From assembly GCF_045679555.1 (NCBI RefSeq), contig NC_092087.1, positions 87,520,861 to 87,584,860 on the forward strand: a stretch of DNA of 64,000 bases. The letters are read 5' to 3'. Source of the DNA: Salvelinus alpinus. Taxonomy: Eukaryota; Chordata; Actinopteri; Salmoniformes; Salmonidae. Made by a program: the position numbers and the translations under genes. The notes beneath the pieces are model-generated. The model was not told the origin of the DNA. It saw only the letters and a program-made list of their open reading frames with translations, and searched no databases. Shown here piece after piece: positions 46,601 to 49,600 of this stretch; the stretch's first letter is position 1; every line of letters starts with the position of its first letter.

Positions 46601-49600
46601 AAAACAATGGAGGTAGAATTATCTAACCCTGGGGCCAGGATTCAATTAGAAAACAATGGAGGTAGAATTATCTAACCCTGGGACCAGGATTCAATTAGAA
46701 AACAATGGAGGTAGAATTATCTAACCCTGGGGCCAGGATTCGATTAGAAAACACTGGAGGTAGAATTAACTAACCCTGGAGCCTTGATTCAATTAGAAAA
46801 CACTGGAGGTAGAATTATCTAACCCTGGGGCATGGATTCAATTAGAAAACACTGGAGGTAGAATAAACTAACCCTGGGGCCTGGATTCAATTAGAAAACA
46901 ATGGAGGTAGAATTATCTAACCCTGGGGCCTGGATTCAATTAGAAAACAATGGAGGTAGAATTATCTAACCCTGGGGTCTGGATTCAATTAGAAAACAAT
47001 GGAGGTAGAATTATCTAACCCTGGGGTCTGGATCCAATTAGAAAACACTGGAGGTAGAATTATCTAACCCTGGGGTCTGGATTCAATTAGAAAACAATGG
47101 AGGTAGAATTATCTAACCCTGGGGCCTGGATTCAATTAGAAAACAATGGAGGTAGAATTATCTAACCCTGGGGCCTGGATTCAATTAGAAAACAATGGAG
47201 GTAGAATTATCTAACCCTGGGGTCTGGATTCAATTAGAAAACAATGGAGGTAGAATTATCTAACCCTGGGGTCTGGATTCAATTAGAAAACAATGGAGGT
47301 AGAATTATCTAACCCTGGGGTCTGGATTCAATTAGAAAACAATGGAGGTAGAATTATCTAACCCTTGGGTCTGGATTCAATTAGAAAACAATGGAGGTAG
47401 AATTATCTAACCCTGGGGTCTGGATTCAATTAGAAAACAATGGAGGTAGAATTATCTAACCCTGGGGTCTGGATTCAATTAGAAAACAATGGAGGTAGAA
47501 TTATCTAACCCTGGGGTCTGGATCCAATTAGAAAACACTGGAGGTAGAATTATCTAACCCTGGGGTCTGGATTCAATTAGAAAACAATGGAGGTAGAATT
47601 ATCTAACCCTGGGGTCTGGATCCAATTAGAAAACACTGGAGGTAGAATTATCTAACCCTGGGGTCTGGATTCAATTAGAAAACAATGGAGGTAGAATTAT
47701 CTAACCCTGGGGCCTGGATTAAATAAGATACTGTGCTAAAGCATTTAAAGGTAATTTCCAATTGAGCCGACATCTACTGTGTTTACCTTGAATGTGATCT
47801 CCACTAACGCAGTAACATGGCCTTTAAAATGTGCTGCTGCCTACAAGCACATTAGGATTGAATCAAGGTTTAGACCTGTGGTTAGTTGTTACCTGGAAGA
47901 AGTTATTAATCTGATCCTAGATCTGTGGTTAGTTGTTACCTGGAAGAAGTTATTAATCTGATCCTAGATCTGTGGTTAGTTGTTACCTGGAAGAAGTTAT
48001 TAATCTGATCCTAGATCTGTGGTTAGTTGTTACCTGGAAGAAGTTGTTAATCTGATCCTAGATCTGTGATTAGTTGTTACCTGGAAGAAGTTGTTAATCT
48101 GATCCTAGATCTGTGGTTAGTTGTTACCTGGAATAAGTTGTTAATCTGATCCTAGATCTGTGGTTAGTTGTTACCTGGAATAAGTTGTTAATCTGATCCT
48201 AGATCTGTGGTTAGTTGTTACCTGGAAGAAGTTAATAATCTGATCCTAGATCTGTGGTTAGTTGTTACCTTGAATAAGTTATTAATCTGATCCTAGATCT
48301 GTGGTTAGTTGTTACCTGGAAGAAGTTATTAATCTGATCCTAGATCTGTGGTTAGTTGTTACCTGGAAGAAGTTATTAATCTGATCCTAGATCTGTGGTT
48401 AGTTGTTACCTGGAATAAGTTGTTAATCTGATCCTAGATCTGTGGTTAGTTGTTACCTGGAATAAGTTGTTAATCTGATCCTAGATCTGTGGTTAGTTGT
48501 TACCTGGAAGAAGTTGTTAATCTGATCCTAGATCTGTGGTTAGTTGTTACCTGGAAGAAGTTGTTAATCTGATCCTAGACCTGTGGTTAGTTGTTACCTG
48601 GAAGAAGTTATTAATCTGATCCTAGATCTGTGGTTAGTTGTTACCTGGAAGAAGTTGTCGACGTGCTCCTTGGGGGCGTCGTCCTGCATACAGGGGTACG
48701 TACACGTCCCCATCATATCATAGATAGAGCTCATTATATCAGTCATCTCCTGAAGCACACACACACAGAAACACACACAGAGGCACACACACAAACACAC
48801 ATGCACGCACAAACATGCACACACACACGCACACATATTCGTGCTCACACACACAAACACGCACACACACCGAGTGGAGGATGGGGGAATAGTTTAGAAG
48901 AGAAAAAAACCATATTTGCACACACACACACACACACACACATACACACACACACACACACACACATACATACATACATACATACATACATACATACATA
49001 CATACATACACACAGTTGAAGTCAGAAGTTTACATACACTTAGTTTGGAGTCATTAAAACTTGTTTTTCAACCACTCCACAAATTTCTTGTTAACAAACT
49101 CTAGTTTTGGCAAGTCGGTTAGGACATCTACTTTGTGCATGACACAAGTCATTTTTCCAACAATTGTTTACAGACAGATTGTTTCACTTATAATTCACCG
49201 AATCACAATTCCAGTGGGTCAGAAGTTTACATACGCTAAGTTGACTGTGCCTTTAAACAGCTTGGAAATTTTCAGAAAATTATGTCATGGCTTTAGAAGC
49301 TTCTGATAAGCTAATTGACATCATTTGAGTCAATTGGAGGTGTACCTGTGGATGTATTTCAAGGCCTAACTTCAAACTCAGTGCCTCTTTGCTTGACATC
49401 ATGGGAAAATCAAAAGAAATCAGCCAAAACCTCAGACAGAAATTGTAGACCTCCACAAGTCTGGTTCATCCTTATGAGCAATTAACAAATGCCTGAAGGT
49501 ACCACATTCATCTGTACAAACAATATTTCGCAAGTATAAACACCATGGGACCACGCAGCCGTCATACTGCTCAGGAAGGGGACGTGTTCTGTCTCCTAGA

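Follow-up and report, generated by a model that had tools for sequence, protein, structure and literature searches.

In human IFI6 (6-16), a minisatellite provides multiple splice donor sites, as the title of Turri, Cuin and Porter (1995) states, and two downstream units are reported to act as donors, giving three messages (PMC4526556). Variable internal tandem repeats at exon-intron boundaries have also been reported in human segmental-duplication genes (PMC2812944). Tandem dual-specific splice sites have been described in UBC, and introns spliced at dual-specific sites are reported to show an 8.4-fold enrichment in tandem repeat genes (Duan et al., 2024; PMC10809524). The present locus lies in a 64,000-nt stretch of Salvelinus alpinus DNA, here called the window, to whose coordinates the positions below refer. 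It holds a 47-bp array, in a recently duplicated kcnip2-like gene, that is best read, at a probability of roughly 0.68, as a minisatellite that originated over a splice junction, is unstable and is for the most part passive. The array is not described in the available text of the literature found on salmon kcnip2 introns, seabream myostatin (for the topic of salmonid minisatellites and splice sites), decoy or pseudo-5′ sites, and tandem duplication with intron gain, nor in that of a recursive splicing preprint (PMC13105047) and a paper on minisatellite splicing in C. elegans (PMC4039745).

The kcnip2-like gene and its repeated donor

Six exons occur in order on the minus strand from 55091 to 43559, the search covering the gene from the first of these positions downstream. 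Three upstream coding exons (55000..55091, 53772..53841 and 50680..50858) are followed by a 105-nt kcnip2-like exon of 35 codons, EMTDIM...NFFQ (exon 5; 48645..48749), a next exon of 63 nt encoding 21 residues behind the acceptor TTTCAG (45646..45708), and a last coding exon of 15 residues and a stop (43559..43606). Exon 5 was assigned by tblastn and by phmmer against the PDB, where its peptide matches KChIP4 best (48.3 bits) and then KChIP2 (45.1 bits). Within this genome, its identity is 77% to the pair on C3 and C32 and 63-69% to ten other full-length exon matches. As the C3/C32 exon stands near the KChIP2 row of the PDB alignment, the name kcnip2-like appears fitting, which upholds in this form the earlier attribution of the exon to kcnip2. 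The exon at 50680..50858 is a fusion of two kcnip2 exons, which stand apart on C3 and C32, the intron having been lost here; the pair is likewise contiguous in relatives on C19 and C5, and family members on C4 and C7 (L063 and L064) entirely lack the intron between exons 5 and 6. The donor of the next exon runs straight into a GT repeat (45548-45645), and the acceptor of the array exon comes after a TG-rich repeat (48756-48870). Kcnip-like exon fragments with the donor GTAACAGAACTAAC are found at seven places on C2 (L015-L020 and L022), and the sequence after this donor resembles a Tc1-type transposon end.

The intron behind exon 5 spans 2936 nt (45709..48644, minus strand) and contains both the 47-bp array and a 49-bp array of 36 copies (45964-47728). 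Placed by exon homology, the putative authentic 5′ splice site (48637..48644, minus strand) reads CAG/GTAACAAC at the end of the 105-nt KChIP exon, the slash marking the splice junction, and 16 further copies follow downstream. In all, GTAACAAC occurs 17 times on the minus strand between 48760 and 47850, and the step between copies is always exactly 47. By Tandem Repeats Finder (TRF), the minisatellite occupies 47871..48656 on the minus strand, with 16.7 copies and 97% matches. The first G of the authentic donor stands at plus-strand coordinate 48644; the 16 decoy donors (47885..48597, minus strand) have theirs at 48597, 48550, 48503, 48456, 48409, 48362, 48315 and 48268 for decoys 1-8, and at 48221, 48174, 48127, 48080, 48033, 47986, 47939 and 47892 for decoys 9-16. 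From -3 to +6, the 9-mer is CAGGTAACA at 16 of the 17 donors and AAGGTAACA at the other. The original prediction of 17 donors at exact 47-bp steps, the real one included and most keeping CAG/GTAAC, is thus borne out. CAGGTAA is found 16 times in the array, four times elsewhere on the minus strand of the window and 13 times on the plus strand.

Each unit joins the first 33 nt of the intron (GTAACAACTAACCACAGATCTAGGATCAGATTA) to the final 12-14 nt of the exon, as expected of a repeated exon-intron junction. Averaged over 20 full units (16 in the window and four in a second gene copy described below), the unit tail matches the exon end at 96% over the last 12 nt, 92.5% over 14 and 86% at 15, so the earlier figure of 10-13 exon bases was about right. 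A longer exon homology was considered and rejected, since the match of 92.5% at 14 nt drops to 75.8% once 25 nt are compared. Given this fall, and given the dispersed repeat core within the intron part, likeness beyond 14 nt is not counted as exon-derived. Among the same 20 units, the last, partial unit being left out, the variable columns are 12, 18, 34, 35, 41 and 45 of 47. The AG/GT core and the whole of GTAACAAC are constant in 20 of 20, and the lack of any of the six variable columns from these 8 of 47 positions is not remarkable. CAG is lost in one window unit (AAG) and in two units of the second copy (TAG).

Searched through the whole genome with up to two mismatches, the junction sequence CTTCCAGGTAACAACTAACCACAG gives 24 matches (0 for the reversed control), of which 17 lie in this array, five in the second gene copy and two at single junctions on the same contig. 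Repetition of the junction is thereby limited, at this threshold, to the two gene-copy loci. An exact search for the junction in public viral contigs returned 0 matches. The intron part is found more widely: CTAACCACAGATCTAGGATCAGAT has 102 exact copies genome-wide, 18 of them within the two arrays, with 0 for the reversed control. In 20 picked copies (L041-L060), likeness spans roughly 110 bp, and the ends look inverted or palindromic by eye. The 24-bp repeat core also sits within tandem units on C27 (52 bp), C29 (39 bp), C8 (55 bp), C10 (58 bp) and C2 at 99.07 Mb (64 bp), and in a near version on C26 (47 bp), so that five or more unit lengths besides the present one are represented among the minisatellites that contain it. 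Because the core sits in tandem units of several lengths, the dispersed repeat appears to enter minisatellites recurrently and would here have been captured along with a splice donor.

Gene copies, coding constraint and predicted decoy use

A second gene copy is located 194 kb away, at C2:87.37 Mb, where the same exon is followed by five donors, four of them extra. No unit type is common to the two arrays, and mean unit identity is 96.8% within the window, 94.7% within the second copy and 95.6% between them. On the same contig, at 85.38 and 85.87 Mb, two relatives carry the junction once, without an array, and their exons look decayed, one with two TGA and the other in frame only for residues 6-34. 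From the second copy with five donors, the lack of common unit types and the single-junction relatives, it follows that the array is genuine, that it originated within this gene lineage and that its length has shifted since the gene was duplicated. The earlier expectation of an unstable array length agrees with the 16 and 4 extra donors of these close paralogues. A microhomology seed between the exon end and the intron of the single-junction relatives (L007 and L008) was rejected, as 101 and 175 of 500 shuffles scored equally well. Window positions 28316-64000 and C2:87340000-87409999 form a segmental duplication about 194 kb apart, with the order partly rearranged.

In both copies, all six exons are open and flanked by AG acceptors and GT donors; one predicted boundary each of exons 2, 3 and 4 is one base off, the likely junctions being CTACAG/TGTG, CAGGGAG/GTGAG and TTTAAG/AC. 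The copies differ at 1 of 558 exon sites; outside the exons, 132 of 5785 aligned and unmasked sites differ (p=1.3e-4), which makes divergence about 13 times lower in the exons than in the aligned surrounding DNA. The non-exon count comprises aligned sites outside the listed tandem repeats between 43384 and 56209, where 13 more sites are gapped; it is confined to stretches that align between the copies, with sites taken from several BLAST segments in order of quality, starting with the best. Both genes thus look constrained, though gene conversion of the exons could partly explain the low divergence. Since they do, the genes apparently tolerate spare donors, be they 4 or 16. The most economical view is that both copies make protein, in which case correct splicing would occur despite the spare donors, and the coding constraint suggests that the authentic donor is dominant in use.

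Use of decoy 1 would add 47 nt (15 codons plus 2 nt) and shift the frame through exon 6, so that 85 new codons would be read before a stop that lies 145 nt inside the last coding exon. If this is the last exon, the stop would lie within it, and the message need not be degraded. Decoys 2-16 lead to a stop after 16 codons, 109-767 nt upstream of the last junction. By the 50-nt rule, these messages are expected to decay. It had been claimed of the next unit's donor that it would add 47 bp, change the frame and reach a stop at once; the addition and the frame change stand, but the reading continues for 85 codons into the last exon, and an early stop applies only to decoys 2-16.

Predicted U1 pairing is -8.3 kcal/mol for the authentic donor and 15 of the 16 decoys and -6.5 kcal/mol for the remaining decoy, on a scale where full complementarity gives -14.4 and the kcnip2 donor on C3 gives -5.9. 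Predicted accessibility is low throughout: 0.03 for the authentic donor, the second highest of the 17, and 0.011-0.10 for the decoys, with decoy 12 highest. Thus, the sequence does not visibly favour the authentic donor. A structure that hides the decoys was rejected as a cause, since a 161-nt segment with the authentic donor and three decoys gave a z of 0.70 and 154 of 200 shuffles folded at least equally well. When two equal donors compete, splicing studies often find the downstream one favoured, a preference that, if it applied here, would predict heavy decoy use. Exon definition through the upstream acceptor, together with exon enhancers, is the likely source of a preference for the authentic donor. 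Telescripting, in which U1 blocks premature poly(A) sites, was also rejected, as AATAAA and ATTAAA are absent from the minus strand of the 2936-nt intron.

Minisatellite instability and alternative readings

Minisatellites with a period of 10 or more make up 31% of the window, and four such arrays cover 27% of the gene span. One of the ten internal exon boundaries lies inside an array, against 2.7 expected from circular shifts, 97% of which give at least one; the test is crude, since it takes no account of how rarely exons are themselves repeats. Chance alone would therefore be expected to place a boundary in an array here. Of nine collinear minisatellites compared between the two gene copies, eight, among them the 47-bp array, have different copy numbers, for example 36 against 21, 79 against 29 and 42 against 11; the ninth (16 bp, 2.9 copies) has the same number in both. 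Arrays with a period of 15 or more and at least 2.5 copies were paired by unit likeness within 70 kb fetched from the second locus, leaving out four 22-bp sub-period rows, row 39116 (its partner already counted) and row 11717 (its partner not collinear); window arrays without a partner in these 70 kb carry no information on length change. Length change is thus the local rule and not a mark of function. Elsewhere in the window, arrays of 18, 24, 27, 54 and 108 bp, all multiples of three, occur at 13302-13852 and 32852-34908; by eye, the units at one place look like those at the other, and the repeats are possibly coding. A UnaL2 LINE 3′ element at 18854-18907 is the sole Rfam match at gathering score in the window.

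The preferred reading begins with a 47-bp tandem duplication across the exon end and intron start of the recently duplicated kcnip2-like gene, after which the junction unit would have grown into an unstable minisatellite. In most transcripts, the spliceosome would still join the authentic exon to the next one and remove the whole array within the intron. Low-level decoy use may yield a frameshifted C-terminus from decoy 1 and early-stop messages, likely degraded, from decoys 2-16. The array would be mainly passive, its length drifting like that of its neighbours. Two points speak against passivity: the donors are of equal strength, with nothing in the sequence that strongly marks the authentic one, and the invariance of GTAACAAC in every full unit might hint at maintenance.

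The original prediction had proposed that the array could tune splicing or buffer U1 binding. As a rheostat, the extra U1-binding donors would adjust how the exon is defined or how fast splicing proceeds, and selection would act on array length, a doubtful proposal even though the middling U1 strength of the donor means that extra local U1 could matter. It is unsupported given that the exons are constrained with either 4 or 16 decoys, a fourfold difference, that neighbouring minisatellites in the duplicated stretch vary likewise, and that chance would readily place a boundary in an array; the intron also offers no AATAAA or ATTAAA for U1 to suppress. A decaying gene copy, with the array as a mark of lost function, is considerably less probable: degenerate kcnip-like fragments do occur elsewhere on the contig and exon 5 has diverged from the C3/C32 kcnip2 pair, but the open exons with intact splice sites in both copies and the low exon divergence argue otherwise. 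Near-identical tandem units are easily miscounted in assembly, so the exact number of 16 may be off, yet an artefact as such has a minimal chance. The second gene copy, with its own four extra donors, indicates that the array is not an assembly slip; moreover, seven unit types are found among the 16 window units, none of them in the second copy, and the window contains no N.

It could also be that each unit is both acceptor and donor, in the form CTTCTTCCAG/GTAAC, and that the array is a self-correcting splice buffer in which splicing from one unit to any later one takes out whole units and leaves the same junction. An extended message could be re-spliced from the authentic donor to the CAG of the retained decoy, restoring the normal message. 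Mistaken use two or more units away would then be correctable, letting a junction minisatellite expand harmlessly in an active gene. An intron of 47 nt falls below the length that splicing usually requires, so decoy 1 would escape correction. In favour of such a buffer, AG/GT is constant in all full units, the exon end is pyrimidine-rich in all 14 kcnip-family exon copies shown, these two genes included, and branch-like CTAAC or TTAAC motifs are present in the two units scanned; array AGs carry 9-12 pyrimidines of 16, compared with 7-14 for the six real acceptors of this gene. Human UBC is also reported to use tandem dual sites, and such expansions have been argued to be less harmful since they can be removed by splicing (PMC10809524). 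Against this, of the 776 AGs counted across the surrounding 14 kb, those of the array among them, 31% have at least 10 pyrimidines; further AGs lie between CTAAC and CCAG, and CAG is lost in three units as noted above. Because the acceptor side looks unremarkable, both the buffer and the harmless expansion it would permit are held to be unlikely. If the units did act in both roles, the locus would illustrate a way in which a repeat spanning a splice junction can expand without harm.

Relation to described junction repeats

The two gene copies, nearly identical and both constrained, carry 5 and 17 donors that are themselves almost the same. They constitute a natural experiment on spliceosome choice among equal donors and on how much junction duplication a gene tolerates. 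As in IFI6, the tandem unit contains an exon-intron junction with its donor. The IFI6 repeat unit is about 12 bp long, whereas the unit here is 47 bp, and 15 of the 16 decoys here give early stops. Use of downstream units as donors has been reported for IFI6 (PMC4526556); use of the present decoys is putative. The human segmental-duplication cases share with this locus a minisatellite of variable copy number at an exon-intron border of recently duplicated paralogues (PMC2812944). Those cases concern human genes and are reported to be able to form new introns. The AGGT junction repeated at fixed spacing recalls UBC, but the UBC sites bound coding units of 228 nt, a multiple of three, and are reported in use (PMC10809524), whereas the unit here is 47 nt and intronic, with a putative dual use. 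The locus thus adds to the known minisatellites with repeated splice donors a case that has many donors and offers, in its two gene copies, a natural comparison of 5 with 17.
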